DNA of 43,396 nucleotides from Verrucomicrobiaceae bacterium E54 (GTDB taxonomy: Bacteria > Verrucomicrobiota > Verrucomicrobiia > Verrucomicrobiales > Akkermansiaceae). The number at the start of each line of letters is the position of its first letter. Within the stretch, counting starts at the first letter, position 1. Positions 3,071-37,021 of this stretch are shown in pieces. The stretch covers positions 1 through 43,396 of the forward strand of contig JAKZES010000045.1 in assembly GCA_022548915.1 (NCBI GenBank). Direction: 5' to 3'. The notes beneath the pieces were generated by a model. It worked only from the letters and a program-made list of their open reading frames with translations. It ran no database searches and was not told where the DNA came from. The position numbers were made by a program, and so were the translations under genes.

Positions 3071-3089
3071 TGGGTCGGGTCTTTCCTGC

Positions 3090-22946: not shown

Positions 22947-24749
22947 TCAACCCTTTTGTTTCAAAGTGATCAACACGCGCAGGGGTCCTGTGAGTCCCTC
23001 AAGCTGGAAATGGGGGTGAATGTATAGAATCGCCCTGTAGCTTCCGGGGCTGCCCACGACGTCCGCGACATCGACGCGCGCCTCGGCCAGAGGTTTCGAA
23101 GCTTTGACCTCCTCTTCGTCGGAGTCAGAGACGTAGTTGGCGAGCCATTGGTTCAGCCAAGCTTGAAGGTCCGATGTTTTCATGAATGATCCGATCTTGT
23201 CTCGGACCATGCACTTGAGATACTGGGCGAAACGACAGACACCGAACGTGTATGGAAGCCTACATGCGCAATTCTCATTTATCTGGGTATCGGCCTCCAT
23301 GTAAACATCCGGCCTCTTGAGTGCCTGAGCACCGAAGAAACAAGCATAATCACAGTTTTTGTAGTGGGAAAGGGGCATGAGTCCAAGATCCGCCAATTCC
23401 TTTTCTCTCCGATCGGTGATGGCAATTTCGGTCGGACAGCGAAGATCGATGACACCGTCGTCAGTTGGGAACGCATGGCCGGGCAGGTTATCGACGATCC
23501 CACCGCTTTCCAATCCCCGGATTTGGGTTGGCCAGCCATTTTCCTGAAAGCTCCTGTTGATATTGGCACCGAAAGCGTAGATCGCGTTCGAAAAGCAAAG
23601 CTCAGCGCCGGAGCCGACATCAGCAGCCTCCTCAAACTCAAAAGCCTCCAGCGGGTTGGTTGCGGACCCGTAGGGCATTCTCGCCAGAACCCGTGGCATG
23701 GTGAGGCCTAGGTAGCGGGCTTCTTCATCGCTGCGCAGGCTGTTCCAAGCAACGTGAGTGATGCCAGCAGTCGACCTTCGAAGATCAGGTGCATTCATCA
23801 ACTCGGCCCAGCTATCCATGTCGAATAGATCCGCCGCAGCGGCCCCGATGAAGGGCGTGTGGGAGGCGGCGGCAATTCTTGACATGCCCCGAAGCACTTG
23901 AACATCTTGACCAGAAGGGCCGAAGTCATAGTCGCCTATGACGACTCCGAAGGGCTGGCCTCCCGGTGTACCATACTCCTCCTCGTAAATTTTCTTGAAA
24001 AGCTCGGTCTGGAAGTATTCCTCAGAGTCCCTTACCTTCAGTTGCTTGTGGATCTCCTTCTTGGAAATATTGAGCACTTTAATTCTGAGGGAATCACTGG
24101 TCGCTGTATTTTCGACCAAATAGGCCAGCCCCCGCCAGCTTCCCTCAAGCCTACGAAACTTCTCATGGTGGATGATCAGGTTGATTTGCCTGCTGAGTCG
24201 GCGGTCGATGTCCGCGATGGCTGCTTCGATGGCATCCGGAGCCTTCGGATTATCTTGCAATGCCTGGGATCGCTCATCGGAAGTTCGGGCGTACCCACGG
24301 TGATTTTCACAAACATCCTCACCAACCGAGGTGGCTCCATCAAAAGACGAAAGCTGTTGCTGAAGTCGCCTTCTTCGGTCGAGCAAGCCAGTGAGAGGCT
24401 CAGCCTTGGAAGGCGATTCGTGCCCTAGCTTCCAGACAATTTTTCCCGGTGAGAAATCATCGATCTCTTCAAGCACGATGTCCACATCTATGATGCCATC
24501 CCCGGCTATCAGGTTAGCGACCGTAAACGTGACCCGTGGCTTCTGCTCCTTGAAATAGGAGCTGAAGTTCCCTGCATTCAGTTCGAAGAATGACCTGTCT
24601 CTGATATCGCACCAAATGCCCGCATTGTCGCCGGATAGGTCCGCCATGACTCCCGTAACCCACGGGAGTTGCACTTTCCGGACGCAATCCCCGATCTCGA
24701 CGTCGTATTCAATCTGAACGCGTGGCTTGCGGGGTAAGGTGGTCATCAT
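22947..24749 (-). CDS. TssB-TssC fusion (type VI secretion sheath subunits in one protein)
   Basis: Residues 1-140 match TssB: RVQIEYDVEIGD, then QLPWVTGVMADLSGD, PRVTFTVANL, EEIDDFSPGKIV and a helix LTGLLDRRRRLQQQL. A linker of about 35 residues follows. Residues about 175-600 match TssC: DRRLSRQINLIIHHEKFRRL (next EGSWRGLAYLV), EYGTPGGQPFGVVIGDYDFG, EARYLGLTMPRVLARMPYG, NAIYAFGANI, and the conserved end PGSYRAILYIHPHFQLEGL. TssB and TssC are normally separate proteins that co-assemble into the contractile sheath. No other T6SS gene (tssK, F, G, A, M, ClpV, hcp, vgrG) is in the window. It is the first gene of a two-gene unit with the TIR-NACHT-WD40 protein. A contractile or filament-forming role in defence is possible but speculative. 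Confidence 0.9.
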   Translation of the reverse strand: MMTTLPRKPRVQIEYDVEIGDCVRKVQLPWVTGVMADLSGDNAGIWCDIRDRSFFELNAGNFSSYFKEQKPRVTFTVANLIAGDGIIDVDIVLEEIDDFSPGKIVWKLGHESPSKAEPLTGLLDRRRRLQQQLSSFDGATSVGEDVCENHRGYARTSDERSQALQDNPKAPDAIEAAIADIDRRLSRQINLIIHHEKFRRLEGSWRGLAYLVENTATSDSLRIKVLNISKKEIHKQLKVRDSEEYFQTELFKKIYEEEYGTPGGQPFGVVIGDYDFGPSGQDVQVLRGMSRIAAASHTPFIGAAAADLFDMDSWAELMNAPDLRRSTAGITHVAWNSLRSDEEARYLGLTMPRVLARMPYGSATNPLEAFEFEEAADVGSGAELCFSNAIYAFGANINRSFQENGWPTQIRGLESGGIVDNLPGHAFPTDDGVIDLRCPTEIAITDRREKELADLGLMPLSHYKNCDYACFFGAQALKRPDVYMEADTQINENCACRLPYTFGVCRFAQYLKCMVRDKIGSFMKTSDLQAWLNQWLANYVSDSDEEEVKASKPLAEARVDVADVVGSPGSYRAILYIHPHFQLEGLTGPLRVLITLKQKG

Positions 24750-24923
24750 CTGGATTCAGTAAAGGTGCGGATTATACGATGCGGAATGGCGCCGCATCAA
24801 TACCTGAGCGGCAGTCTTGGGGACAGCGGGGTCAACGCCGAAACCGAGAATGAGACGAAGCTCCTCGGCTGGTCTCGGCGAGGTTGGCTGGCAGCAATTT
24901 TGTTTCCCGTCATAACGTCGCTG
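24750..24923. other. Intergenic region upstream of the TssB-TssC gene
   Basis: It should hold the promoter of the leftward TssB-TssC/TIR-NACHT-WD40 unit and the end of the leftward sigma-54 activator gene. A perfect 7-bp stem, GATGCGG-aatggcg-CCGCATC (about 24778-24798), is present; without a T-run it could be an operator or a weak terminator. Confidence 0.4.
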
Positions 24924-26201
24924 TCACTGATCCCCCCCACCCGGCACGATCCCGCGGCATTCCTCCAGCACGGCGATGGCGAGGGCCTTGGTGACGGGCT
25001 TGCGGTTGGAGAGCAGGTGGAGGTGATTGAGAAAGGCGCGCAGTTCGCGGACGTTGCCCGGCCAGGGCAGTGCCATGAGCAGGTTCAGCACGGCGTTCGG
25101 CAGCGCCCGGGGTCCGGCGATGCGGTCCCACAGGCTCCGTGCAATCTCCGGGATGTCATCGGCGTGGTCGGCCAGGGCTGGCGTGCGGATGCGGAAATTA
25201 AAAAGCCGGTAGTAGAGGTCCTCGCGGAAGGTCCCGGCGCGGACCATGGCAGGAAGGTCGCGGTTGGTGGCGGCAAGAACACGGGCGTTGCTGGTGACCT
25301 CGCGGTCGGCTCCGACTGGCGTGTAGGAGCCCTCCTCGAGCGCCCGCAGGATCTTGGCCTGTTGGTCGAGCTTGAGCTCCCCGATCTCGTCGAGAAAGAG
25401 GGTGCCATTGTGCGCCATGCTCCAGAAGCCCTTCTTCTTGCGGACCGCACCGGTGAAGGCACCGCGGTCATGGCCGAACACTTCGGACTCGAAGAGACTC
25501 TCGGAAATCCCGGCACAGTTGACCGGCAGGAACGCGCCCGCGGCACGGGAACCGAGCGCATGAATCTGACGGGCGACGACCTCCTTGCCGGTCCCGGTTT
25601 GCCCGAGGATCAGGACGGGGTGTTCGCTGCGGGCGGCCAGGACGATGAGGCGGCGCACCCAGTCGGCGTGCACGGAACCCCCGAGGAACTTTCTGCGGAG
25701 GTCGTCCGGGATCTCCAGATCGGCGCACCGGTCACGCAGGACCTGCATCGCCGGGGAGAGAAGTTGGAGAGCCTCGTCTCTCTCGGCCGCCCGCGCCCGG
25801 ATCCCGGAAAACACCTCGTCGGACACCGCCACGATGCAATGGCAGTCATTGCCCTGCCGCTCGCAGTGATCGAGCAGGGCGCGTGCGCCGCGGAGTGCCT
25901 GCGCCGGGTCGCGGTAGGGCGCGCGGAGCAGGATTCGCCCGCTGCGGTTCCCGACGTAGTAAGAGAGGGCTTTCGCCCGGTTCTTTTCGCCCCGGTCCCC
26001 GAGCTGGCTCGCGGGACAGCGGCCGATCACCTCCGGGACGTGGTCGAGGGAGATGAAGGTCACGCGGGCGAGGGCGCCATCCCCGGCGGCGTCCTGGAAC
26101 GCCAGGGTGTCCGGCATCAGATTGACGCGACGACCCTTGCGCGCCCCAACGGCGACCAGCACGGCCGGGATCGTTTCCCCTGCTGCATGTTTCAGAGCCA
26201 T
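24924..26201 (-). CDS. Sigma-54-dependent activator without an evident C-terminal HTH
   Basis: The 425-residue protein has an N-terminal region of about 170 residues with alternating strands and helices (AVLVAVGARKG, ARVTFISLD, CHCIVAVSDEVF), perhaps a Rossmann-like sensor. A full bacterial enhancer-binding AAA+ domain follows: Walker A GQTGTGKE (200-207), GAFTGA loop (247-252) for sigma-54 contact, Walker B TLFLDEIGE (about 267-275), FREDLYYRLFNFRI and WPGNVREL. Only about 40 residues follow WPGNVREL, and no Fis-type helix-turn-helix is apparent. The gene diverges from the Ub/Pup operon, whose promoter region has a sigma-54 promoter, so it is the obvious activator. Layout resembles RtcR-type regulators, where ligand binding by the N-domain releases the AAA+ domain. 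Confidence 0.9.
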   Translation of the reverse strand: MALKHAAGETIPAVLVAVGARKGRRVNLMPDTLAFQDAAGDGALARVTFISLDHVPEVIGRCPASQLGDRGEKNRAKALSYYVGNRSGRILLRAPYRDPAQALRGARALLDHCERQGNDCHCIVAVSDEVFSGIRARAAERDEALQLLSPAMQVLRDRCADLEIPDDLRRKFLGGSVHADWVRRLIVLAARSEHPVLILGQTGTGKEVVARQIHALGSRAAGAFLPVNCAGISESLFESEVFGHDRGAFTGAVRKKKGFWSMAHNGTLFLDEIGELKLDQQAKILRALEEGSYTPVGADREVTSNARVLAATNRDLPAMVRAGTFREDLYYRLFNFRIRTPALADHADDIPEIARSLWDRIAGPRALPNAVLNLLMALPWPGNVRELRAFLNHLHLLSNRKPVTKALAIAVLEECRGIVPGGGDQ

Positions 26202-26268
26202 CGAGACCTCCGGGAGTCAGTCACAAGCCGGCTGCCGATGCAATGTCGGAGACCCACAAGCCCCGTCG

Positions 26269-26286
26269 GGTTGAGTGGATTCAACC
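26269..26286. promoter_or_regulatory. Candidate upstream activator site 1
   Basis: GGTTGAGTGGATTCAACC is an inverted repeat with perfect 6-bp arms, about 115 bp upstream of the sigma-54 promoter, a usual distance for enhancer-binding proteins. It shares GTTGAGT with a second palindromic site at 26312. Confidence 0.5.
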
Positions 26287-26311
26287 TGCCAGACAGCCGA
26301 ACCCGCCCGTT

Positions 26312-26325
26312 GAGTTTGCCAACTC
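26312..26325. promoter_or_regulatory. Candidate upstream activator site 2
   Basis: GAGTTTGCCAACTC is a 5-bp-arm inverted repeat and is preceded by GTT, so the GTTGAGT word of the site at 26269 recurs here. It lies about 75 bp upstream of the sigma-54 promoter. Confidence 0.4.
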
Positions 26326-26398
26326 TCCCCTTTGCGCGTTCCCCCCGGATCGGCGCAAAGCCCGCAGCCATGGGCCTTGCAGCGGACCTAGCCAAGGC

Positions 26399-26414
26399 TG
26401 GCACGGCGCTTGCC
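26399..26414 (+). promoter_or_regulatory. Sigma-54 (-24/-12) promoter of the Ub/Pup operon
   Basis: TGGCACGGCGCTTGCC matches the sigma-54 consensus TGGCAC-N5-TTGC, with exactly 10 nt between the GG (26400-26401) and GC (26412-26413) elements. Transcription would start near 26425, about 55 nt before the first start codon. The divergent neighbour encodes a sigma-54 activator with an intact GAFTGA loop. Confidence 0.85.
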
Positions 26415-26480
26415 ATAGAGATTGGCGTGGCGATGGCCCATCGGATCGGCCTGCGCCCGAAAACCCAAAAAACCAAAATC

Positions 26481-27062
26481 ATGAATTCACCTGACCGCGC
26501 CGCCCTCCAAGCCCAGCTCGATGCACTCGCCACCGAAGTCCGTGACATCAAGAAGCTCGTAACCCGCCTCGTCGCCGCCCTGCTGGAGGAGCGCCAGTTC
26601 CCCGATCTCCGCGGCGCGAGCGAAATCCGCAACCTCGAGGCCGGATTCATGACGCGGGACCAGGTGCAGTTGATCGGCTGCACCCTGCGGGTCAATCACC
26701 GCGAGGTCATCCTATCCAAACGCCAGGCCGTGCTGGTGTCGATCCTGATGCGGCACGCGCTGGCAGGCGATCACGGGTTCATCTCCGTTGCGGCCATCAT
26801 CTCCGAGATCGAGACAGAGTTCGCGGACGAGTGGCGGCTGGCGATGCCGGAAGATGTGCACCAGGTCGTTTACCGGATCCGCCGGAAGCTCGGCCTCGAC
26901 CGCGACCTGCTCGAAACGTCCCCGGCCAAAGGGGAAGGCATCCGCCTCTCGACCCCCGCCGGTCACATCACCCGCCTCAAGAGCCCGTGGGACGACCGAA
27001 CGCATCCCTGCACCCCGACCCGTGACCGGGACTCCGGATCCGACGAGGCATCGACCATCTAA
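26481..27062 (+). CDS. Winged-helix transcription regulator (OmpR-type C-domain)
   Basis: This is the first gene after the sigma-54 promoter, 193 residues from ATG 26481. The same frame is open far upstream but that part is antisense to the sigma-54 activator and is not used. Residues 1-40 predict a coiled coil (LQAQLDALATEVRDIKKLVTRLVAALLEE). Residues about 60-160 match the winged helix of OmpR/PhoB response regulators: CTLRVNHREVILSKRQAVLVSIL, a recognition-helix region MPEDVHQVVYRIRRKLGLD, and a wing ETSPAKGEGIRLS. There is no receiver domain. It may autoregulate the operon or give DNA specificity to the HTH-less activator next door; both are inferences. The leader is A/C-rich (aacccaaaaaaccaaaatc) without a Shine-Dalgarno site. 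Confidence 0.85.
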   Translation: MNSPDRAALQAQLDALATEVRDIKKLVTRLVAALLEERQFPDLRGASEIRNLEAGFMTRDQVQLIGCTLRVNHREVILSKRQAVLVSILMRHALAGDHGFISVAAIISEIETEFADEWRLAMPEDVHQVVYRIRRKLGLDRDLLETSPAKGEGIRLSTPAGHITRLKSPWDDRTHPCTPTRDRDSGSDEASTI

Positions 27063-27173
27063 CAAGCTTTCTCCCGTGGAACCTTCCCCAATCCAAAGCC
27101 CGGGGCCCCGACCTCCTTCCCAAGCTGCGTCCATGGACCTCCACCCTCCGGTTCTGGCATATTAGAAACCGTT

Positions 27174-27647
27174 ATGGACGCCCTTCGATACCGTGACCCC
27201 GAGGCCGAAGCTGCCTGGCTTTCCTTGCCTCTTACCGAGCCCGTCCCGCTCCCTTTTCCAGGGATGCCGGTCGATCGGGAAGAGGCTCTGGTCCTGCCCT
27301 CCGGGGCATTGGTCTGCCGCGGCGACTCGCCGATCCGGGTCAACGGCCGGGCAGTGCCAGGCGGCCTGCGCGTGCTCCGGGAGAAGGATGAGATCCGGTT
27401 GGCCAGACACCGCTTCTACTTCAGCACGAAGGACGCCCTGACGATCGCCCGGCACGAGGGAGAGCCAACCACCTGTCCCCGCTGCACGGAGCCGATCAAG
27501 AGCGGAGCCGACGCGATCCGCTGCCACTGCGGGACCCTCTTCCATCAGTCGGAGGATCACCCTTGCTACACCTACGGGGAGACCTGCCCCAGCTGCGGGG
27601 TCACGACCCGGATCGATGGGAGCCCCTGGAATCCCTCTGAACTCTAG
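27174..27647 (+). CDS. FHA-like / RING-like zinc protein, candidate E3
   Basis: The product has 157 residues. Residues about 40-85 resemble an FHA or similar beta-sandwich core (PIRVNGRAVPGGLRVLREKD, then EIRLARHRFYF). Residues about 99-145 carry a treble-clef array: CPRC, a CHCG pair, FHQSEDHPC and CPSC, i.e. eight or nine Cys/His ligands spaced as in prokaryotic RING-like domains. RING domains recruit E2 enzymes, and this gene sits immediately before E1 and E2 genes (6-nt gap to E1), so an E3 role is a reasonable inference. The FHA-like part would be the substrate-binding half. A plain zinc ribbon remains possible. Confidence 0.75.
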   Translation: MDALRYRDPEAEAAWLSLPLTEPVPLPFPGMPVDREEALVLPSGALVCRGDSPIRVNGRAVPGGLRVLREKDEIRLARHRFYFSTKDALTIARHEGEPTTCPRCTEPIKSGADAIRCHCGTLFHQSEDHPCYTYGETCPSCGVTTRIDGSPWNPSEL

Positions 27648-27653
27648 CTGCCC

Positions 27654-28712
27654 ATGCCCGACTCACGTTCCATTCTCCTCGCCGGCCTCGGCAACACGGG
27701 ATCGCACCTCGCGCCGCTGATCGCGCGCATGGGTCTGAGCGAGCATCTGGTCATCGTCGATCCGGACATCGTCGAGGAGGACAACATGACGGCTCAGGCC
27801 TACCGTCCGGATGAGGTGGGGCAACCCAAGGCCTCCGGCACCGCGGATCTGCTGCGGCAGATCCGTCCGGCGCTTCGCGTCGAAGCTTTCGTCGGAGAAC
27901 TCGAGGACCTGCCCCTCGGGTGCTTTTCCGGACTGGTGATCCTGTGTCTCGACCAGGATGGGGCACGCCAGGTCGCCGCGGAGCGATGCTGGCAAACCGG
28001 CGGCGTGCTCTACGACGTTGCGGTCAATGGACCGGCAGGACTTGCCCGCCTGACCCGGATCCTCCCCGGCGCTGGCAGGGCCTGCCTTGAGTGCAGCTGG
28101 TCGGACGGGCAGTATGCAAAGCTCCCGGTCCGGAACTCGTGTCGAAAAACGCCACCCACCGACGCACCGGCTGCCTTGGGAAGCTTCGCCGCGAGCCTGA
28201 CCACCTTGTGGATGAACTCGGAGGAGGCCGGCGACGACAATGTGGAAGTCGTCTCATCCCCGACCGACGGCGAGATGTTCGTTACCCGGCTCACTCCCAA
28301 TCCCGATTGCCGGTTCGACCACCGCGTTCCCGGTATCGCGCATTTCGGTGCCCTCGACCCCCTTGCGCCTCTGCCCGTCCTGTTCGATCGCCTCCGCACC
28401 AAGGTGCTGGCGGTGCCGGGGTTCACCTTTGCCCGTCGCACCCGGTGTGTCGGCTGCGGTTCCGAGGAGGAGGTCCTGCAAATCGCCCGGGGCCCCGCCG
28501 GGCCGGGTCCGTGCAAGCGTTGCGCCAGCCCCCTCGAGTTTCCCGGTTTCCACACCAACAGCCAGCTCATCCGGTCCGAGCTCAGTCCGGCGGAAGAGGA
28601 AACGAGCCTTGAAGCCATCGGGCTGAGGGACGGCGACGTCGTCGTCGCCGATGACGACCAGTGGGTCCAACTCGGACTCCGCCAATCCAAACCCGGGCAT
28701 CTCCATGTCTGA
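27654..28712 (+). CDS. E1-like (ThiF/MoeB family) ubiquitin-activating enzyme
   Basis: The 352-residue product opens with a Rossmann adenylation domain (SILLAGLGNTGSHLAPLIAR), an acidic segment VIVDPDIVEEDNMTAQAY with the ATP/Mg-binding Asp and Asn, and VGQPKA with the conserved Lys. CLECSW and CVGCG/CKRC pairs may bind zinc. A Cys in LPVRNSCRKTPPTD is placed where E1-like proteins often have the catalytic Cys. A C-terminal part of about 60 residues (TSLEAIGLRDGDVVVADDDQ) resembles a small beta-grasp or adaptor region. The reaction would be adenylation and thioester capture of the Ubl encoded downstream. The stop overlaps the E2 start by 8 nt. Confidence 0.9.
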   Translation: MPDSRSILLAGLGNTGSHLAPLIARMGLSEHLVIVDPDIVEEDNMTAQAYRPDEVGQPKASGTADLLRQIRPALRVEAFVGELEDLPLGCFSGLVILCLDQDGARQVAAERCWQTGGVLYDVAVNGPAGLARLTRILPGAGRACLECSWSDGQYAKLPVRNSCRKTPPTDAPAALGSFAASLTTLWMNSEEAGDDNVEVVSSPTDGEMFVTRLTPNPDCRFDHRVPGIAHFGALDPLAPLPVLFDRLRTKVLAVPGFTFARRTRCVGCGSEEEVLQIARGPAGPGPCKRCASPLEFPGFHTNSQLIRSELSPAEEETSLEAIGLRDGDVVVADDDQWVQLGLRQSKPGHLHV

Positions 28713-29208
28713 TCCGATCCATCAACGATTCGTCGACGCACAGAAACTCGAGGCCGAGCGCTTCGTGGCCATGAATCCCGGCTTCTGCGAGATCCTCAGC
28801 CTGCCGGACGCCCGGTTCCTCGTGCACCTCGACTGTCCCGTCATGCGCCTCCGGCCCGGCCGGCCGCCGGTGCGGGGCACTGGCTGCCACATCGGCATCA
28901 CCTTCAGGCCCGACTACTGCCGCCGCCCCGATCCGCAAGCGGTCTCGATCCTCACCCCCTTCATCTTTCACCCGAACATCGTCGGCACGGCCGCCTGCCT
29001 GGGTCGAATGGCGCCGGCGACGCCGATCGTCGACCTACTACTACAGGTCTACGAGATGCTCGTGTGGAAGACCTATTCCGCCCACGACCCGATGAACCCC
29101 GAGGCGGCGCAGTGGGCCCGCAACCATGCCGATGAGGTCCCGCTTGAGGCCGATCGAAGCGTGCGCATCCCGAAACCGGCGGAAGCCGCCAATCCCACCG
29201 TAGGATGA
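28705..29208 (+). CDS. E2-like ubiquitin-conjugating enzyme (UBC fold)
   Basis: The start is ATG 28705, 8 nt inside the E1 gene. The 167-residue product keeps the E2 signature: FHPNI, then GTAACLGRM with the candidate active-site Cys98, then DLLLQVYEMLVW and HDPMNPEAAQWARNH, which correspond to the helices after the active site in E2 proteins. Upstream strands (RFLVHLDCPVMRL, CHIGITFRPDYCRR) form the UBC sheet. It would accept the Ubl from E1 and transfer it to substrates, possibly with the RING-like protein. The stop overlaps the next gene's ATG in an ATGA arrangement. Confidence 0.9.
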   Translation: MSDPIHQRFVDAQKLEAERFVAMNPGFCEILSLPDARFLVHLDCPVMRLRPGRPPVRGTGCHIGITFRPDYCRRPDPQAVSILTPFIFHPNIVGTAACLGRMAPATPIVDLLLQVYEMLVWKTYSAHDPMNPEAAQWARNHADEVPLEADRSVRIPKPAEAANPTVG

Positions 29209-29849
29209 ATTCCACCATTTCCACACACGACGAACTCGCCGCCGCTACAATCGCCAACGGTTACATGGCGGGCCTGTGGAAGCACGCGCTCGACGACGGG
29301 CGGTGGGTCATCAACGACCAAACGGGGGGGCGAGAGAAAACGTCCCCGCCCAACCCCGACCGGGAACCCGCCACCCGCACCCTGACCGGGAACCCGGAGG
29401 CCACGGCTGAACTGCTGTCCACGATCCAGGATGAAGGCTGGGCCGTCAGCGAAGAATCGGGCGTGAAGCGGATAGACCTCGGGCTCACACAACGGGCACG
29501 GGCAGATCTCTGCTTCGACGAAGAACCGGACCACGCCGGGTCGCTGTGTGTGCGGATCCTGCCGGATGACCTTTCGCCGAATGAGGCGGTCATCGCTTTC
29601 GCCCTTCAACTCACCGCCTCCCATCACGGGGTGCGCGCCTCGCTCCTCGAGCTTGGTCAAGGCCCCACCCTCTTCTGGGAAGCACCTTTCGACTCAACCG
29701 GTGTCTCCAGCCACCCGCCCGGCACGGCGCTCCAGTGCCTTGCCCAGGTCGTCGGCTCCGGCCAGGCCGAAGCCCGCCTGCTCGCCGCGGACCCAACCAC
29801 CGCGGCACGGTGGGTCCGCATGAATCTCCCCGATCATCCCCCGTACTGA
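29205..29849 (+). CDS. Unknown protein of the Ub/Pup operon
   Basis: The 214-residue protein starts at an ATG overlapping the E2 stop (ATGA), so it is translationally coupled. I do not recognise the family. The sequence is soluble, with a likely helical N-terminus (THDELAAATIANGYMAGLWKHA), a disordered Pro/Arg-rich stretch around residues 40-60 and a mixed alpha/beta C-terminal half (SLCVRILPDDLSPNEAVIAF). Cys residues are few, so a zinc domain is unlikely. Its position between E2 and Ubl suggests an accessory subunit or adaptor. Confidence 0.75.
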   Translation: MNSTISTHDELAAATIANGYMAGLWKHALDDGRWVINDQTGGREKTSPPNPDREPATRTLTGNPEATAELLSTIQDEGWAVSEESGVKRIDLGLTQRARADLCFDEEPDHAGSLCVRILPDDLSPNEAVIAFALQLTASHHGVRASLLELGQGPTLFWEAPFDSTGVSSHPPGTALQCLAQVVGSGQAEARLLAADPTTAARWVRMNLPDHPPY

Positions 29850-29871
29850 AACCAACAAACCAAACAACATC

Positions 29872-30165
29872 ATGGTATCCAACGAAACCAACACCCTGAC
29901 CATCACCGCCCGCGACGTCACCGGCCAACGCCGGACCGCCTACGAAGTGTCCCGCGAGTCCTCCGTGGACTCACTGATCGAGGGACTCGGAGATCGCATG
30001 AACCTGCTCCGCGAGGACGCCGACGGACGCCCGGTCACCTGGTACGCCAGGCACGAACGGGAAGGCCGCGCGCTGCATCGGAGCGAAACGGTCGGCGAGG
30101 CCCTCAAGGATCAGGATGAGATCCGCCTGCAGCCGGAAATCAGCGCCGGCGCTACCGGAAACTGA
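29872..30165 (+). CDS. Ubiquitin-like beta-grasp protein
   Basis: The 97-residue protein has a beta-grasp pattern: strand TLTITARDVTGQRR, strand TAYEVSRESSVDSLIEGLGDRM with the helix, VTWYARHEREGRAL, then the ubiquitin-like SETVGEALKDQDEIRLQPEI. It lies between the E2-linked unknown and the JAMM gene, as expected for the modifier. The C-terminus is SAGATGN, not a terminal GG, so a different activation end, processing or a non-covalent role must be considered. The leader aaccaacaaaccaaacaaca is A/C-rich with no Shine-Dalgarno site. Confidence 0.85.
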   Translation: MVSNETNTLTITARDVTGQRRTAYEVSRESSVDSLIEGLGDRMNLLREDADGRPVTWYARHEREGRALHRSETVGEALKDQDEIRLQPEISAGATGN

Positions 30166-30184
30166 GAACGAACCCCGAAACGAC

Positions 30185-31150
30185 ATGATCCCCCACGACT
30201 ACCAGTTGCAGTGCTTCAAGGAGGACGGCACCCCCTTGGGCAAAGCCATCCTTCTGCCTCTGGGCGGCGTCCTTTCCGAAGGTGTCGAGGCACTGCACTG
30301 GCAGTCGTTTGTCGAAACCGGACGAGGCCTCGCGGATCCGATTGAGGTCGTTCCGCGCTGGTCCCCCGATGCCGGAGAGCCGGTGGTTGAGGCACTCTGT
30401 CTTGAGTCCGGAAGCTCCACAGTGTCCCTGCCTGCCACCCGACTCTTCCACCCCATGGCGGTCCGGCAACGGACCCGCCTGCTAGAAGATGGAGCCCTCA
30501 AAGAAAGCGAGTCCTACGGATTCCTCGTGACCGCCCGGCCAGCGGAGGAACCTTCCCCCTTGCCGGTGTTTTCCCTCGCCGATTATCCCCTCTCCACCCA
30601 GCGCATCGAGATCGGCGGGGAACCGGTTGATGCGGAGTTTGCCGCCGCTGGCGACTTCCCCGTCCTGATTGCGCCCAAGGTGCTCCGCGATGCGGTCAAC
30701 CTCGCGGAAGTGGCGGGAGAAGCCGAGGCAGGGGGCGTGCTCTTCGGGCACCTGATGAAGACCGTGGACGGCACCACGGTTGCCCTGTCGATCACCCATC
30801 TCTGGCCGGCCACCGGTGGCCGGGGCGATCAAAGCTCCTTCACCTTCACCCCCGAGACCTGGACCTCCGCGGCAGTCGCACTGGCCGAGCGTTCTGCCGA
30901 CGAACTCATGGTCGGATCATTCCACTCACATCCCGATTTCTGTCGCAAGTGTCCGCCCGAGCGCCAGGCCGTCTGCAAGCTTCGCGAGCCGTTCTTTTCC
31001 AGGGACGACGAGCAACTCCAGCAGTCCGTGTTTCCCGCCGGCTACTCGGTCGGACTACTTGCCAGCCACGATGGCGAGAAGCCAATCCCTTCCCTGTGGG
31101 GATGGAGGGATGGATTCACCGCACGTCGCTCCTACCTCATCCCATCCTGA
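30185..31150 (+). CDS. JAB1/MPN (JAMM) metallopeptidase, candidate deubiquitinase
   Basis: From ATG 30185 the product has 321 residues. The C-terminal half is a JAMM domain with Glu181 (EAGGVLFGHL), His247 and His249 (FHSHP) and Ser272/Asp275 (FSRDD), so the zinc site is intact. An insertion with three Cys residues (CRKCPPERQAVC) separates HxH from SxxD. Residues 1-150 are an extra beta-rich domain (YQLQCFKEDGTPLGKAILLP) not seen in minimal JABs. In Ub-like operons JAMM enzymes process the Ubl or remove it from targets. It begins 19 nt after the Ubl stop and ends 3 nt before the ATPase gene. Confidence 0.92.
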   Translation: MIPHDYQLQCFKEDGTPLGKAILLPLGGVLSEGVEALHWQSFVETGRGLADPIEVVPRWSPDAGEPVVEALCLESGSSTVSLPATRLFHPMAVRQRTRLLEDGALKESESYGFLVTARPAEEPSPLPVFSLADYPLSTQRIEIGGEPVDAEFAAAGDFPVLIAPKVLRDAVNLAEVAGEAEAGGVLFGHLMKTVDGTTVALSITHLWPATGGRGDQSSFTFTPETWTSAAVALAERSADELMVGSFHSHPDFCRKCPPERQAVCKLREPFFSRDDEQLQQSVFPAGYSVGLLASHDGEKPIPSLWGWRDGFTARRSYLIPS

Positions 31151-31153
31151 ATC

Positions 31154-32806
31154 ATGCCAAGACAAGCCACCAGAACCAGAGACACGCGCACATCCACCCG
31201 GGAGAGTGCGCTGCAGAAGGCACTCGACCCACGCCGGGACATCCCTCTCGGTGTTCGGCTCCAGCTTCTGCATCAATTCCGGCAAGGAAACGTCGATGAA
31301 GCAATCCACAAGGCGGACGAGCTGATCCTACGCGGCGCGATCGGTCTCGGTCAGACCCTGCTGAAAGCCCATGCCGATCTCAAAGATCACATCGATATCC
31401 TGACCTCGCCGCCATTCTTTCCAGGTATCTATCTCGGTCCCTCCGGAGAGCGGCGCGCCCGGGTGCGCTGCGGCGAGGCCGAGCGCATCGTGGGGATCGA
31501 TGGGGATCACGAACTCCGGCCGGGCGATCCGATCTTGCTCAACAGTGACCGGACCGTGATCCTCGACCGGTGCGAGAAGGAAGCCTCGCTGGGAGAGGTC
31601 GCGCGGTTCGTCCACCTGGCGGATGGCGGCAGGATCGTCCTCGATTTCCGCGGGGAAAGCCTCGTCTGCCTGCCCGTCAACGGGCTTGCGCCGGACGCCC
31701 TTCGCAAGGGTGACCTCGTCCTCATCAATCCGCCCGCCAAGCTGGCCATCGAGCGAATCACAGAGCCCGAGGGCGGGCGCATGCCCTTCGAAGTGGAGGA
31801 AGAGATCGGGGCCGGCCCGGAAGACGTGGGTGGCCTCGAGCGGGAACTGGATGAGCTTCTCTGGAGTCTGTTGATCGCCATCGAGCACCCGGAGACGGCA
31901 CGCCGCCACCGGATCGCCGGATTTTCCTCCATCATCCTCCAAGGCCCCCCGGGGGGTGGCAAGACCCTGATGGCGAGGGTGGCCGCTGCAGAACTTCAGC
32001 GTCGCACCGGGAAACGAACCCGGTTCCTCACCGTAAGGCCGTCGGAGTGGCGCAGCGAATGGGTGGGCGTGGGTGAGCGGGCCATCCGCGAAACCTTCGC
32101 CGCGATCCGGAATCTCGCATCCCAAGGCGGACACGTGGTCGTGTTCCTCGACGAGGCGGAAAGTCTGGGCCGCGTTCGAGGAGGGCGGGCTACCACGGTG
32201 CTCGACGACCTCACCAACGCCCTGCTCGTCGAGCTGGATGGATTCTCCGGAGACGGATTGAACAACGTGGTCGTAATCTCGGCGACCAATCGCAAGGACC
32301 TGTTGGATCCCGCCCTGAGGGACAGGCTCAGCGGGGTTGAAATCCGCGTCCCAAGACCGCGAATGGACGCGGCACGCGCGATCTTCCGGGTTCATCTCCG
32401 GGAAGATGACCCGTGGGCCGACCCGCAGGCTCGCGAGGAGGCCATCGAGACAGCGGTTTCGCTCCTCTACGCCCCAGCTGGTGACACTAATGAAGTTTGC
32501 CGCATCCGCTTCAATGACGGTTCCTCGCGCGTCGTGCGGGCCGGGGCGCTCATCAGTGGCCGACTCATCCGGCAGATCTCCGACAACGCCCGACGTCTGG
32601 CCGCGCGCCGCGAAGTCGACGGGCAGAGCGACGGGCTCGGCATTGATGACCTGGTCTCCGCCACGGAGCAGGCCATCGACACCTTGCGAACCACCCTGAC
32701 TCGCGACAACGCAGCCAGCTGCCTCGAGGACCTTCCCCAGGATCTGGCGATTGTGGCGGTGGATCCCATCTGGCCAACACATCGCCGCCACCGACAACCC
32801 CGCTGA
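31154..32806 (+). CDS. Mpa/ARC-like AAA+ ATPase (unfoldase)
   Basis: The 550-residue protein has the order of Mpa/ARC proteasomal ATPases: a helical N-terminus (about 1-80), two OB-like domains (about 85-205, e.g. PGIYLGPSGERRARVRCGEA and DALRKGDLVLINPPAKLAIE), then one AAA+ module with Walker A GPPGGGKT (264-271), Walker B VVVFLDEAES (about 328-337), ATNRKDLLDPALRDRL with the Arg finger, and a helical lid. In Actinobacteria Mpa threads pupylated proteins into the 20S proteasome through a C-terminal GQYL. Here the C-terminus is basic (RRHRQPR) with no such motif, and no proteasome gene is in the window. Pupylation genes follow directly (3-nt gap). Confidence 0.88.
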   Translation: MPRQATRTRDTRTSTRESALQKALDPRRDIPLGVRLQLLHQFRQGNVDEAIHKADELILRGAIGLGQTLLKAHADLKDHIDILTSPPFFPGIYLGPSGERRARVRCGEAERIVGIDGDHELRPGDPILLNSDRTVILDRCEKEASLGEVARFVHLADGGRIVLDFRGESLVCLPVNGLAPDALRKGDLVLINPPAKLAIERITEPEGGRMPFEVEEEIGAGPEDVGGLERELDELLWSLLIAIEHPETARRHRIAGFSSIILQGPPGGGKTLMARVAAAELQRRTGKRTRFLTVRPSEWRSEWVGVGERAIRETFAAIRNLASQGGHVVVFLDEAESLGRVRGGRATTVLDDLTNALLVELDGFSGDGLNNVVVISATNRKDLLDPALRDRLSGVEIRVPRPRMDAARAIFRVHLREDDPWADPQAREEAIETAVSLLYAPAGDTNEVCRIRFNDGSSRVVRAGALISGRLIRQISDNARRLAARREVDGQSDGLGIDDLVSATEQAIDTLRTTLTRDNAASCLEDLPQDLAIVAVDPIWPTHRRHRQPR

Positions 32807-32809
32807 GCC

Positions 32810-34306
32810 ATGGATCTCTACATCAAAAGGGATATCCCGGATCCCCGCGCTCCGAAAATCGTCGGATTCGACACTGAGTTGATGAACGTCAACCCGGCCA
32901 AGGATGACGCCGGGTTCTCTGCCTCGAGGGCGCTTCTGAGAGAGGTGTCCGGTTGTTCCGCCAACCTGCCCGGCTCGCTGCAGGACAGCGGCCGGAAGTT
33001 CCTCCCCGGATCCGGTGGCAGCATTTATATCGACCTCAACCACCTCGAACTCGCCAGCCCCGAATGCCGGAGCGCCGTGGATTTCATGACATGGTTTCAC
33101 GCCATGCTCGGAATCGCCCGCGAGGCCACCCAGGCGGCCAACCATGACCGGCTCGAGGAACGAAAGCTTCGGGTGCATGCCAACAACTCCGACGGTCTCG
33201 GCAATGCGTGGGGCGGGCACGTTTCGGTCATGCTCTCCGACAGCGCGTATCAGTGGATCTTTTTCGAGCGGCTGCACCTCCAGCTCTACCTGGCCTCGGC
33301 CCAGATCAGCTCGATCATCTTTACCGGTGCCGGGGAGGTCGGGACCGAGAAGGGGAGGAACAAGGTCCCGTTCAGCATCTCGCAAAGGGCCGGCTTCATG
33401 GAAGTCATGAGTTCCATCGAAACGACCCGCAACCGCCCGCTGGTAAACACTCGCGATGAGCGCCTGGCAGGCGTCGGCTTGTCCCGCCTCCACTGCATCT
33501 TCCACGACACGACCCTCACCCACACCTCCCTGGTAATGAAGGCGGGACTCATGCAGATCTTCCTCGCCTCCATCGAGGCGGGGCGGGACGATCCCGGGCT
33601 CTGTTTTGAAGAGCCGCTCGTGGCGCTCCGGACCTTCAACACCGATCCAAGCTTGCAGGCGAAAGCACGGTTGCTCAACGGCCAGCAGGTCACCGCTGTC
33701 GAACACCAGATGCTCCTGCTCGAAGGAGCAACCAAACTGCTCGACGGCGGAGGGGAAGCCTACATCCCGGGTTTGGCGGAGCTCCTCGCCTTGTGGGAGA
33801 GGCTGTTGCAGGCGTTCCGGGACGAGGATCGCGACTTCCTCTTCCCGCGAGTGGACTGGATTGCGAAGCATGCGGTACTCAATCGTGCCGCCTCCGCAAG
33901 GGGTCTCGCCTTCTCGGAGCCGTCGATGAAGGCCCTGGACTTCGCGTGGTCCGATCTGGAAAACGGCATCTACTTCGATCTTGAGCGTTCCAAGTCGGTC
34001 GAACGGCTTGCCTCGCAGCATCACATCGCCCACGCCGAGAAATCCGCTCCCGCGGACACCCGCGCCTACCCACGCTCCCGCCTCATCCGCGCCTTCGGTG
34101 GCCGCGGTGGAGTATCCATCGACTGGCACCGCGTCGTGGTGGGCCGCGGCAACCGCAAGCGGGCCGTCGTCCGTCTCCCCGACCCTGGCGCGGGACGCCA
34201 ACAATTCGGCGACCTCGACGGGCTGACGGAGCACGAACTTGCCGCCACGCTCGGCGTCACAATCGAGCCCGACAAGTGGTTCTTCAGCGTGCTCAACACC
34301 CGCTGA
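32810..34306 (+). CDS. Dop/PafA-family protein 1 (Dop-like)
   Basis: The 498-residue product has the glutamine-synthetase-like Dop/PafA fold: IVGFDTELMN for the GxExE-type ATP/Mg segment, SIYIDLNHLELASPECR with Asp75 in the place of the catalytic Asp (family motif YxD.xHxEyxxPE), the VHANNSDGLGNAWGGHVSVM region and QISSIIFTGAG. The length is that of Dop (about 500). Dop deamidates Pup-GGQ to Pup-GGE and removes Pup; the neighbouring Pup ends in GGQ and so needs this activity. Assignment as Dop rather than ligase is by length, order and the presence of a second family member downstream, and is tentative. Confidence 0.85.
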   Translation: MDLYIKRDIPDPRAPKIVGFDTELMNVNPAKDDAGFSASRALLREVSGCSANLPGSLQDSGRKFLPGSGGSIYIDLNHLELASPECRSAVDFMTWFHAMLGIAREATQAANHDRLEERKLRVHANNSDGLGNAWGGHVSVMLSDSAYQWIFFERLHLQLYLASAQISSIIFTGAGEVGTEKGRNKVPFSISQRAGFMEVMSSIETTRNRPLVNTRDERLAGVGLSRLHCIFHDTTLTHTSLVMKAGLMQIFLASIEAGRDDPGLCFEEPLVALRTFNTDPSLQAKARLLNGQQVTAVEHQMLLLEGATKLLDGGGEAYIPGLAELLALWERLLQAFRDEDRDFLFPRVDWIAKHAVLNRAASARGLAFSEPSMKALDFAWSDLENGIYFDLERSKSVERLASQHHIAHAEKSAPADTRAYPRSRLIRAFGGRGGVSIDWHRVVVGRGNRKRAVVRLPDPGAGRQQFGDLDGLTEHELAATLGVTIEPDKWFFSVLNTR

Positions 34307-34331
34307 CACAGCGGTCCGGACACTTTGCATC

Positions 34332-34526
34332 ATGAAAGAAAAACAACGACAACAACACGACATCCAACCGGGGAACGAAGACGACTGCGGCTCGGAGGAA
34401 CCATCCCAAAATGCCCAGCAGGCCCTTGCCAAGGTCGCTTCGGTGGACGGGATCATCGATGACATCCTCTCGTCGGCCACGACGGGGAACTACCTGGAAT
34501 CGATCCGGCAGCGTGGCGGACAGTGA
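34332..34526 (+). CDS. pup: Pup, prokaryotic ubiquitin-like protein
   Basis: The 64-residue protein begins KEKQRQQHD, is rich in Asp/Glu/Gln/Ser and low in hydrophobics in its first half, as expected of disordered Pup. Its second half, KVASVDGIIDDILSSATTGN then YLESIRQRGGQ, has the helix-forming VDxxxDDIL and the terminal Gly-Gly-Gln of Pup. Mycobacterial Pup is also 64 residues and ends YVQKGGQ. Position between two Dop/PafA-family genes supports the call. The stop overlaps the GTG start of the next gene. Confidence 0.95.
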   Translation: MKEKQRQQHDIQPGNEDDCGSEEPSQNAQQALAKVASVDGIIDDILSSATTGNYLESIRQRGGQ

Positions 34527-37021
34527 GCAACGCCCTTTGGTTTGGAACCGAATGGGAGATTGCCCTCTCGGCAATTGACCGGACCGGCGCGGTCGCGGAC
34601 ACCGGGAACCTTCTCGCCCACATCGACCGCACCCTCGTCCAGCACCTCAGGCATGTTCCTGACGGCGGGCGGGGGTGGTGGCTCGAGAATGGGGCGCGCT
34701 ACTACCGCGACGCGGCCCAGGGAGCTGAAGGGCATGACGAGCTTTGCTCCGCGGAGTGCTGCCACCCTGATGAGTTATTGCTCCAGGAAATGGCGGGCGA
34801 GCGCCTCGTCCTCGGCCTGGCCGACCTCGTCGCTTCCAAGGCTCACTTCGAAAAGGTCAACGTTTCGAAGTCGAACGTCTGCTACTCCGCGTCCACGAGC
34901 TGGGGATCCCACGAGAACTACGAAGCGAGCCAGCAGGTGGATCCGGTGCCGATGCTGGCATGGCTGGCCAGCAGAATCCTCCTGACCGGCTCGGGAGGGC
35001 TGGAAGCCGGCCATCCGGGGATTCGCTTCACGCTTTCACCTCGGGCCCACTTCATTGATTGCCCGGTCAGCAGGGAAACCGAGTTCTCTCGCGGGCTCCA
35101 CAACAGCGGCAAGGCGGAGCCTCTCGGAACCCGGCATCGCGTGCATGTGGTGGCCGGAGACGGGAACCGGGCACCGCTGTCTACCTGGTTGAAGGTCGCC
35201 ACCACCGCGATTGTCATTCGCCTCCTCGATACCAACCAGGGGCCGGACCTTGCTCTGGAACGACCCGTGGAGGACCTGAAGGCCTTCGCCCTCAACTCGG
35301 GAATGACATCCGGGGCCCCGGACTCAAGGGAGCAACTCGAAAGGGCACTTGATATTCAGTTCGCCTTTCTCGAGTCGGCACGCAACGCCGCTGGCGATCT
35401 TCCGGGCTGGGCACCACTCGCCCTCGCCCGGTGGCAAAGCGTTCTCGAAACCCTGGCCTCGAAGTCGACGTGGCGGGGCTTGGTCGGACAACTGGACTGG
35501 CCGACCAAACTTGCCACCTTCGAGATGATTCTGAAAAAGCACGGCTGGAATTGGGGGCGAGTCGGGGAGGTCAACAACCGGATGAGCCAGACCCTTGCGG
35601 ACATCGATGAGGGTATCAGCCAAGGCAACCCTCCAAGGAGAGGACGACACGCAGCGATGATGACAGCCGTCGGAAAGTCGTTGGGGCCAACTCTTGTCGA
35701 AGAGTTCGTGGAACTCCGACAAAAACTGGCCGTGGTGGACGCTCGCTACATGCAGTTGGGGCTCGATTCACTTTACGATCATGTCGCGGACCCGCTCCCC
35801 GAGTTCCGGAAGCTTGCCGACAGCCTTTCGCCGGACCCCTTCGAGCTTCCCCTTCCCAAGTCGGGACGGGCCCGGGCACGTGCGAAACTGATCCGGGAAC
35901 ACGGAGGAACCGGGGAACGGGGAGAAAGCGAGGCATCCTGGACCTACTTCGTCGCCAAGGGTCGTTACCTTTCCATGCCCAATGTTTCTGACGAGAACCC
36001 GCGGGACTGGTCTGAAACTTCGCCGCGGCTCCCCCATTCCAGCGGGCAGGAACGAAGAGAGCCCAACATCTTCACCATCCTCAGGGCAGCCAGACGATCT
36101 TCAAGCTCCCTCAATTCCGGCGACTACCCTCGGGGGACGGCGCTACTCCGCGAAGTCGAGCCACTCCTGAGCCCTCCCCGACCGGGAAGTTTCGAAATCA
36201 TCTCCTATTGGAGGCAATCCGTCCGAGTGCATGCACGCCTCCAAGATGAGAGGTCGATGGAAGATTCCCTCTACTACCTCAAACTCGTGGACCCCGAAGA
36301 CATGGAATACCTCTGGGAGGAGTGCAACGCGAAGACCTGGTTGGGGCTTCGTGGGCATGCCTGTGTGCCAGAGCTTGGCGACCAGGTGAAACGAAAGATG
36401 GCTCAAGTGCGCACCCGCGCCTCCGGGGTTGCTTGCTGGAAATCCCATTTCGCCACGTGGTTGAACCGCCACGGCAAACCAGCGGAAGCACTCGAGTTGC
36501 TGGAGAGCACCCTGGAAAGCGAATACGGCGCAACGAGCCCCAGCGTCCAGGTACGAATCCATACCCAGATGGCCGAGGCCGACCGCATTCTCGGCAATTA
36601 CGACACCGCGGAGCAATACCTCAGCTTTGCAGAACGGACTGGCCGAACCGGCCGGGTGCGTTCGGGCCTCATTGACTACGTCCAAACCGGACAGGCCCGC
36701 CTTCTTGCCCAGAAGGGTGACCACCCTGCGGCCACGCGCCTTATGCTCGAAACGATCCTTCCCGCTCAGCGGCGACTGAGAATGCCGAACCTTATCCGGA
36801 CCCAGCTGATGCTCGCCCGCCTGCAGCCTGGCCGGCAATCCCAGCTTACCTGGGAAGATGAACGGCGAATGATCAAGCACGCCGCCCATGACTACGCCGG
36901 ATTCGCCAACTGCCCGCTTCTCGCCCAGATCTTCAAGCACTGGGTTGCCTGGTGTGAGGGGAAGCCCCACCCAACTCCGGACTCGGAGATCAACAAAGAG
37001 GATTTCTTCTGGGGGGCCTGA
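34523..37021 (+). CDS. Dop/PafA-family protein 2 (PafA-like Pup ligase) with helical C-terminus
   Basis: The start is GTG 34523, overlapping the Pup stop (GTGA). Residues 1-480 match Pup ligase/Dop: LWFGTEWEIAL for the ATP/Mg segment, GWWLENGARYYRDAAQ with Asp63 at the catalytic position, AECCHPDELLLQEM, and RVHVVAGDGNRAPLSTWLKVATTAIV, a family core stretch. Residues about 540-832 form an added helical, TPR-like region (AEALELLESTLESE, RILGNYDTAEQYLSFAERTG) not present in the about 450-residue PafA. Pup ligase activity (Pup-GGE to substrate Lys) is inferred; the TPR-like tail may select substrates. It is the last gene of the plus-strand operon. Confidence 0.88.
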   Translation: MSNALWFGTEWEIALSAIDRTGAVADTGNLLAHIDRTLVQHLRHVPDGGRGWWLENGARYYRDAAQGAEGHDELCSAECCHPDELLLQEMAGERLVLGLADLVASKAHFEKVNVSKSNVCYSASTSWGSHENYEASQQVDPVPMLAWLASRILLTGSGGLEAGHPGIRFTLSPRAHFIDCPVSRETEFSRGLHNSGKAEPLGTRHRVHVVAGDGNRAPLSTWLKVATTAIVIRLLDTNQGPDLALERPVEDLKAFALNSGMTSGAPDSREQLERALDIQFAFLESARNAAGDLPGWAPLALARWQSVLETLASKSTWRGLVGQLDWPTKLATFEMILKKHGWNWGRVGEVNNRMSQTLADIDEGISQGNPPRRGRHAAMMTAVGKSLGPTLVEEFVELRQKLAVVDARYMQLGLDSLYDHVADPLPEFRKLADSLSPDPFELPLPKSGRARARAKLIREHGGTGERGESEASWTYFVAKGRYLSMPNVSDENPRDWSETSPRLPHSSGQERREPNIFTILRAARRSSSSLNSGDYPRGTALLREVEPLLSPPRPGSFEIISYWRQSVRVHARLQDERSMEDSLYYLKLVDPEDMEYLWEECNAKTWLGLRGHACVPELGDQVKRKMAQVRTRASGVACWKSHFATWLNRHGKPAEALELLESTLESEYGATSPSVQVRIHTQMAEADRILGNYDTAEQYLSFAERTGRTGRVRSGLIDYVQTGQARLLAQKGDHPAATRLMLETILPAQRRLRMPNLIRTQLMLARLQPGRQSQLTWEDERRMIKHAAHDYAGFANCPLLAQIFKHWVAWCEGKPHPTPDSEINKEDFFWGA

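Follow-up and report, generated by a model that had tools for sequence, protein, structure and literature searches.

A ten-gene operon combines ubiquitin-type conjugation genes with a divergent Pup cassette in genomes without a detected 20S proteasome

Ubiquitination and pupylation are textbook cases of convergent protein tagging. The actinobacterial Pup-proteasome system comprises Pup with a GGQ end, Dop, PafA, an Mpa ATPase with a GQYL tail and a 20S proteasome. Prokaryotic operons that encode RING, E1, E2, ubiquitin-like (Ubl) and JAB proteins were reportedly described by Burroughs et al. in 2011.

For Thermofonsia and Planctomycetes, one sentence of a previous study notes that Ubl conjugation is coupled to conjugation of Pup (Kaur et al., eLife 2020; PMC7159879). 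The same study presents FtsH-ternary relatives that possess a Ubl-E2-EAD1 fusion, vWA/MoxR and a double FtsH-type ATPase. Pupylation and unfolding of ferritin without a 20S proteasome is recounted for C. glutamicum in a section of a review (PMC8223512).

We analyzed a 43,396-nucleotide stretch of Verrucomicrobiaceae bacterium E54 DNA (the window), in which an earlier note had placed ten genes for both kinds of tagging on one strand. All of these ORFs were found on the plus strand at positions 27174–37021, in the order that had been given; neighbors overlap slightly or lie no more than 25 nt apart (Table 1). This spacing suggests that the ten genes form one transcript.

Table 1. Predicted genes of the operon and an accessory upstream feature; negative gaps are overlaps.
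Feature	Position	Strand	Support	Gap to next gene (nt)
Possible winged-helix regulator, accessory (C-terminal part of ORF 24765-27062)	26481..27062	+		111
RING-like protein, candidate E3	27174..27647	+	FHA-like N-terminal half by eye only	6
E1-like ThiF-fold activating enzyme	27654..28712	+	PF00899, 3.3e-19	-8
E2-like conjugating enzyme, HPN-x6-C	28705..29208	+	five-sequence profile	-4
Unknown protein (gene 4)	29205..29849	+	position conserved, sequence fast-evolving	22
Ubl modifier, single, 97 aa	29872..30165	+	SAMP1, 5.6e-4	19
JAMM isopeptidase with conserved Cys-bearing insertion	30185..31150	+	PF14464	3
Mpa/ARC-like AAA+ ATPase, no proteasome-docking tail	31154..32806	+	TIGR03689	3
Dop-like (noncanonical) depupylase/deamidase	32810..34306	+	PF03136, 1.2e-81	25
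Pup modifier, 64 aa, GGQ end	34332..34526	+	family of 13 proteins	-4
PafA-like ligase with TPR-like C-terminal extension	34523..37021	+	PF03136, 1.2e-50	

The identical ten-gene order occurs at three more DNA loci: L001, from an Omnitrophota MAG, and L075 and L076, from genomes of the window genome's own order. Identity among the four operons is about 25–45%, and the motif residues of E1, E2, JAMM and RING proteins are invariant in all four. Relatives of E1, Dop and Pup also occur together on contigs of 14300 and 129008 nt, E1 and Pup relatives on contigs of 22160 and 47709 nt (the latter being the contig of L001), and Dop and Pup relatives on contigs of 5290 and 11820 nt, with contigs equated by nucleotide count throughout. 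These shared contigs extend the predicted linkage of E1, Dop and Pup.

Family models recognized the E1, the JAMM, the AAA+ and both Pup-ligase homologues, and multi-sequence profiles linked the E2 to eukaryotic E2s and, weakly, the Ubl to polyubiquitin; the RING protein exceeded its cut-off in one orthologue, and the Pup model (PF05639) missed the window Pup. The first product had been called FHA/RING-like. Its RING ligand pattern is conserved (C101, C104, C117, C119, H124, C131, C138 and C141 are invariant in four operons), but no profile supported the FHA half. Matches of the window protein to zf-RING_2 (0.013) and Prok-RING_1 (0.02) fall below cut-off; the G689 orthologue is the sole one above it (33.6 bits against a Prok-RING_1 cut-off of 29.1).

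Of the features of an E1/E2/E3/JAMM cascade, the window has a ThiF-fold E1, the HPN motif and active cysteine of an E2, and the metal-binding and catalytic residues of a JAMM protein. E1 residues G11, G13, D36, N44, K59, D100 and C144 are invariant in the four operons, as are C147, C163, C219, C265, C268, C287 and C290. The window E2 alone matched no Pfam family. The five-sequence profile recovered eukaryotic E2s (best 5.6e-7), and the E2 H, P, N and C are invariant in the four operons and in one further genome, G447. The predicted E2 structure is poor (pLDDT 52); four of its five top Foldseek rows are E2 entries, none significant (best 0.26).

Gene 4 had no family match in profile searches. 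Among the four operons it gave one significant pair (G671-Omnitrophota, 1.2e-5), and its G447 counterpart has a weak likeness to YbjN (0.013). The predicted structure of gene 4 has a pLDDT of 36, and Foldseek returned nothing useful for it.

The window Ubl alone gave weak profile matches only. Its tail reads ..QPEISAG followed by an ATGN extension, and its relatives end in ..AG or ..AGAF. A six-sequence Ubl profile weakly matched chains of ubiquitin, both polyubiquitin and di-ubiquitin (3e-4, in places where a single stretch passes), and matched single ubiquitins at 0.1 or weaker. The JAMM protein scores 27.3 bits against Prok-JAB (PF14464; cut-off 25; 3.5e-6); E181, H247, H249, S272 and D275, together with C256 and C264, are invariant in four operons. 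A three-sequence JAMM profile recovered CSN5 (4.9e-5) and Rpn11 (0.003).

Two loci of the Burroughs type (L036 and L037) share with the window a Ubl with an AG tail, an E1, a JAMM and an E2, and L036 also has a RING gene. Unlike the window, neither stretch gave an AAA+, Dop, Pup or PafA match when searched. BilABCD likewise has an E1, an E2, a JAMM and a Ubl, but BilA has two Ubl domains where the window Ubl is single, and the relevant portion of a review (PMC11354881) mentions no gene for RING, AAA+ or Pup.

Both Pup-ligase homologues keep the catalytic Asp, according to an alignment for the window and L001 and by eye for L075 and L076. The Dop-like protein scores 163 bits against solved Dop and 123 bits against solved PafA. 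The PafA-like protein lacks the Dop-loop in an alignment with canonical pairs, and its extension matches TPR_12 below cut-off (0.0017). Both homologues score nearer solved Dop than solved PafA, so the ligase activity of gene 10 is putative.

Pup candidates from G671 and G689 were, like the window Pup, unmatched by PF05639, and the Omnitrophota Pup scores under the cut-off (18.3 bits against 27). A Pup search gave a set of 13 GGQ-ending proteins, comprising those of the window and Omnitrophota plus 11 more. The G671 Pup also ends in GGQ; the peptide in the Pup position of G689 ends in KSAQ. Pairwise similarity of Pup among the four operons is weak. Judged from sequence, the Pups of window-type operons form a divergent family. 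A quick tree of Dop proteins, built from the window, L001, six canonical sequences and 45 of the 119 other listed proteins, puts the window and Omnitrophota proteins in different clades. The Pup cassette may therefore have come together, or been exchanged, on more than one occasion.

The AAA+ protein matches the AAA profile (1.5e-26) and the proteasome ATPase model TIGR03689 (3.1e-64, with the match ending at 479 of 512). It scores 217 bits with the latter and 91 with FtsH, and so differs from the FtsH-ternary ATPases; the window Ubl and E2 are also separate proteins, and Pfam found no vWA match among the ten products. AAA+ C-terminal tails in the operons end in neither GQYL nor HbYX. The window resembles the actinobacterial system in its GGQ Pup, Dop and PafA homologues and Mpa-like AAA+. 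It differs in the missing GQYL, a Pup unmatched by PF05639, a TPR-like ligase extension, the E1, E2, Ubl, JAMM and RING genes in the operon, and a genome with no 20S proteasome found.

A PF00227 search of the four operon genomes, which are drafts, found no 20S proteasome in any (completeness 97.5% for G000, 96% for G671 and 90% for G689). G000 and G671 gave no match. G689 and G459 each gave a single match that looks like HslV rather than a 20S subunit, as judged by neighbor gene and by eye: in G689 a 181-aa ORF itself reads like HslV, and in G459 the neighboring ORF reads like HslU. Degradation by the same genome's 20S proteasome is thus unsupported. G100 and G131 also contain untyped PF00227 matches and apparently no window-type operon.

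The explanation that we prefer, as plausible but short of probable, is that a proteasome-free operon tags targets with both Ubl and Pup and that one AAA+ pulls these targets apart. The JAMM would trim the Ubl to ..AG, the E1 would adenylate it and transfer it to the cysteine of the E2, the RING protein would steer it to a target, and the JAMM would also remove it. Dop would deamidate the C-terminal Gln of Pup to Glu, the PafA-like ligase, whose TPR extension probably recognizes substrates or partners, would link that Glu to a lysine, and Dop would undo the Pup-lysine link. The AAA+ ring would hold Pup by its N-terminal helical region and thread the target. Since no 20S core was found in the operon genomes, double tagging followed by disassembly or remodeling would be a likelier outcome than proteasomal shredding. 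The parallel is ferritin in C. glutamicum, where Pup and unfolding likewise operate without a proteasome; no Ubl cascade is named for that organism in the corresponding part of the review (PMC8223512).

As to the earlier proposal of a two-tag system, a joint module finds support in the gene order and motif residues that these divergent genomes share; the note's alternative, in which Pup would mark or regulate the ubiquitin branch, is conjectural. Several observations run against the preferred explanation: the AAA+ of G447 occurs without Pup, the G689 Pup-position peptide lacks GGQ, both Pup-ligase homologues score nearer solved Dop, gene 4 is barely alignable, Pup is weak in pairwise comparison, the Dop clades are split and the genomes searched for 20S are drafts.

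G447 has the first seven operon positions, followed by a PRTRC-like JAB/E1 cassette; Pup genes are absent. Four of these positions were assigned by sequence and three (RING, Ubl and unknown) by motif or position; pairwise comparison of these three with the four operons gave nothing significant. The PRTRC-like cassette suggests that the second tag may be swappable, and an AAA+ without Pup genes is not bound to recognize Pup and may instead recognize the Ubl. We also consider a proteasome-free machine with a RING/E1/E2/X/Ubl/JAMM/AAA+ core, an interchangeable second-tag cassette (Pup in the window type, a PRTRC-like Ubl system in G447) and an unfoldase that would need both tags on a protein. This arrangement is doubtful.

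The Mpa-like character of the AAA+ is also consistent with a system that passes proteins bearing Ubl or Pup on to FtsH, Lon, Clp or another peptidase, and degradation of targets was suggested for such coupled systems in the passage that mentions them (PMC7159879). In profile searches none of the ten products was recognized as a chambered protease, no 20S was found in the four genomes and the AAA+ has no docking tail, and we regard this outcome as unlikely.

The distribution of the operon is sporadic. It was found in none of 96 relatives and, within the window genome's order, in 3 of the 386 genomes searched. Six of these 386 match the Dop profile, and the three strongest matches (G000, G671 and G689) have the whole operon. 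Loci were retrieved from G671, G689 and G666; G685 and G699 (229–231 bits) were classed as canonical from score alone. One of 14 genomes in the phylum of G459 (G459 itself) has an E1 at 1e-25, and 4 of 288 in the class of G447 matched, including G496 (7.5e-26). A plasmid search yielded no further operon and two actinobacterial records (28–32% identity), and a viral contig search yielded no match.

Such sporadic occurrence, and the TIR proteins nearby in the window, would fit an anti-phage or conflict role, with Ubl and Pup both inactivating proteins of the invader and the AAA+ taking them apart. Ubl systems are known in prokaryotic conflict systems, as the relevant part of one study relates (PMC7159879). 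The E1 partially matches PADLOC E1-E2 models (best 5.5e-11), the JAMM a JAB model (0.0021) and the AAA+ TRIP13/IetA models (4.7e-20). These matches reflect shared folds only, however, and the E2, unknown, Ubl, Dop, Pup and PafA-like proteins have no PADLOC match. The flanks of L075 and L076 are known as untyped ORF lists. An anti-phage role seems unlikely.

The single operon common to both arms in four genomes could also reflect a brake, in which PafA would pupylate the E1, E2, RING or JAMM protein, or else Ubl conjugates, for removal by the AAA+; the ubiquitin-type half occurs without Pup in G447, and we give this role little credence. Accidental adjacency of two unrelated systems, for which one might cite ubiquitin-type loci without Pup (L036 and L037) and a Pup locus, L077, that holds a PF00227 gene and gave no match to E1, is extremely improbable and was rejected because three further loci keep the identical order across four divergent genomes.

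The earlier note's view of the operon as a candidate undescribed system holds only in part. The variant is new, but Ubl and Pup coupling had already appeared in the sentence of Kaur et al., who likewise join a Ubl cascade to a Pup system and give, at that point in the paper, neither a parts list nor a missing proteasome (PMC7159879). The window operon is a novel form of this barely noted coupling. Its core resembles a eukaryotic set (E1/E2/RING, an Rpn11/CSN5-like JAMM and an Rpt/Cdc48-like motor). With both tags, an unfoldase and no detected proteasome, the operon makes it testable whether unrelated tags are read jointly and what Pup and ubiquitin-type tags do without a 20S.

In an E1 tree, the Omnitrophota E1 is loosely placed (the L038 row is out of frame there). 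Profile A2 comprised 34 of the 46 E1 proteins with E < 1e-26, and profile A14 comprised 30 rows.

Position 26481, where the earlier note began the operon, is an ATG within the winged-helix-like ORF. This ORF has no Pfam match and, by eye, no same-strand counterpart in the L075 and L076 ORF lists. Two ORFs that precede the G447 core align with it at 28–29% identity, and one of them has a sub-threshold match to Trans_reg_C (0.043).

We identified ten successive genes at 27174-37021 on the forward strand that overlap or lie at most 25 nt apart, which confirms the one-strand run of ubiquitin-type and Pup-type genes claimed by the earlier note. Its product assignments are borne out by profile searches for E1 (ThiF profile, 3.3e-19), JAMM (3.5e-6), AAA+ (1.5e-26) and two Pup-ligase homologues (1.2e-81 and 1.2e-50). 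Pup (34332-34526) has no match in Pfam. RING, E2 and Ubl give weak or no matches when queried singly, but a profile built from five E2s matches eukaryotic ubiquitin-conjugating enzymes (best 5.6e-7), and one built from six Ubls weakly matches polyubiquitin and di-ubiquitin chains. The JAMM profile matches CSN5 and Rpn11, and the RING of G689, a genome of the same order, exceeds the Prok-RING_1 cut-off. The top NCBIfam match of the AAA+ protein is the proteasome ATPase TIGR03689 (3.1e-64, 217 bits; equivalog cut-off 505 bits).

The ten-gene operon is conserved. All ten genes occur in identical order in a Candidatus Omnitrophota MAG (locus L001). Within the window genome's order, a Dop profile matched 6 of 386 genomes, the strongest three being the window genome (G000), G671 and G689; the latter two both encode the full operon. 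Among the four operons, RING, E1, E2, Ubl, JAMM, AAA+, Dop and PafA match significantly in every pair; the fourth gene does so in just one, and Pup pairs reach 6e-4 at best. Invariant in all four are the E2 His-Pro-Asn and Cys, the E1 glycine-loop, Asp, Lys and Cys residues, eight Cys/His of the RING, and the JAMM Glu, His, His, Ser and Asp, as well as two Cys that lie in a family-specific insertion; these residues presumably have the roles typical of their families. The JAMM insertion (30932-30997) lies between HxH and SxxD, at the same site in L001, the G671 and G689 operons (L075 and L076) and the G447 locus L038; C256 and C264 are common to all five.

Searches with PF00227 gave no hit in either G000 (97.5% complete) or G671 (96% complete). 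The single match in the Omnitrophota genome adjoins an HslU-like ORF, that in G689 is a 181-aa HslV-like ORF, and 20S proteasome genes were thus not found by this search in the four operon genomes. In contrast, the two Pup-ligase genes of the G666 Pup locus flank a PF00227 gene. The AAA+ match to TIGR03689 stops at position 479-488 of 512, and none of the C-termini carries a terminal GQYL or HbYX motif.

With gene content, order, conserved residues and no detected 20S proteasome established, we infer that the Ubl would be attached via E1, E2 and RING and be matured and removed by JAMM. Pup would be deamidated by Dop and then attached by PafA, and the tagged protein would be pulled apart by AAA+. 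Ubls of L036, L037, L010, L001 and G671 end in AG, and that of G447 in AA. The tails extend past AG in the window (by ATGN) and G689 (by AF), which suggests maturation by JAMM in these two. The AAA+ may read Pup, the Ubl or both; G447 carries the AAA+ gene without Pup, which argues that this protein could serve a Pup-free neighbourhood. In Corynebacterium glutamicum, according to a review, ferritin is pupylated and unfolded without a 20S proteasome (PMC8223512).

Pup and PafA without proteasome genes were described in Rhodopirellula and Plesiocystis (Iyer et al., 2008; PMC2588565), in a text that contains neither 'JAB' nor 'E2 enzyme'. The accessible text of Kaur et al. (2020; PMC7159879) gives Ubl/Pup coupling in a single sentence. 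Within the literature searched, which included few subscription papers, 'Pup-conjugation' and 'Ubl-conjugation' occur together only in that paper, and no fuller description was found there.

The eighth gene product is closer to solved Dop (163 bits) than to solved PafA (123 bits). The tenth is also nearer Dop (106 versus 44 bits), despite having no Dop-loop, a feature that distinguishes Dop from PafA according to Hecht et al. (PMC7947786). By alignment, most of this loop is missing from the window's eighth gene as well; both proteins retain the catalytic Asp and first-strand Glu (by eye). In the window, G671 and G689 the tenth protein bears a TPR-like extension; its L001 counterpart lacks this and is 524 aa long. 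In a quick tree of 53 rows, subject to a long-branch warning, noncanonical Dops (47 rows) separate from same-phylum canonical Dop/PafA, with window and Omnitrophota Dops in different noncanonical clades. This noncanonical family is broad (L001, P0002-P0120) and stands apart from both canonical Dop and PafA in that tree. G000 encodes a second PafA-like TPR protein on contig C144 (L005:3031-5628; 45% identity to the tenth gene product), adjoined by a TIR-like ORF (by eye); no other operon gene had a significant match in the 19 kb read there. G671 has an additional PafA-like gene (L078:9659-11068).

Three protein searches returned E1, Dop and Pup relatives on contigs of equal size (14300 and 129008 nt), as well as E1 with Pup (22160 and 47709 nt, the latter being L001's contig), Dop with Pup (5290 and 11820 nt) and E1 with Dop (259199 nt); this linkage is read from equal sizes, and from DNA for the 47709-nt contig only. 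A Pup search (E up to 1) returned 13 of 15 candidates, all 13 ending in GGQ, with the final 27 residues near-constant except in the Omnitrophota sequence. The G671 Pup also ends in GGQ; the G689 peptide at the Pup position (L076:14234-14473) ends in KSAQ instead, keeping the terminal Gln.

In G447, winged-helix, RING-like, E1, E2, unknown, Ubl-like, JAMM and AAA+ genes follow the window order. Replacing Dop-Pup-PafA are a small Ubl-like ORF (called by eye, no family match), an untyped ORF, a JAB (PRTRC_A, 2.8e-9) and a ThiF (PRTRC_ThiF, 3.8e-8). Best significant pairs with the four operons are E1 1e-16, E2 8e-10, JAMM 1e-6 and AAA+ 3e-24; RING, Ubl and the unknown gene have no significant pair and are assigned from motif or position. 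This one genome raises the question of whether the second cassette may be swappable.

Coordinates of other window genes and of related loci
Location	Strand	Feature
window 1943-3250	-	patatin
window 3090-5798	-	RyR-AAA
window 7439-8455	-	another TIR protein
window 18567-22940	-	TIR, NTPase and WD40-repeat protein
window 22947-24749	-	one ORF matching both VipA and VipB contractile-sheath families
L038:5006-7825	-	PRTRC-like JAB and ThiF genes in the Pup cassette's place, after the Ubl/JAMM/AAA+ core
L036:8224-13355		Ubl-E1-JAMM-E2 type locus without Pup genes
L037:7460-13829		Ubl-E1-JAMM-E2 type locus without Pup genes

An E1 profile matched 29 of 387 genomes of the phylum and PF03136 matched 10, apparently in the same 387-genome draw; only G000 is on both lists. 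L036 and L037 encode Ubl, E1, JAMM and E2, and a search of both loci gave no AAA+ or Pup matches. RING is found in L036 only, where its ORF runs on into a stretch that by eye looks hydrophobic and membrane-like.
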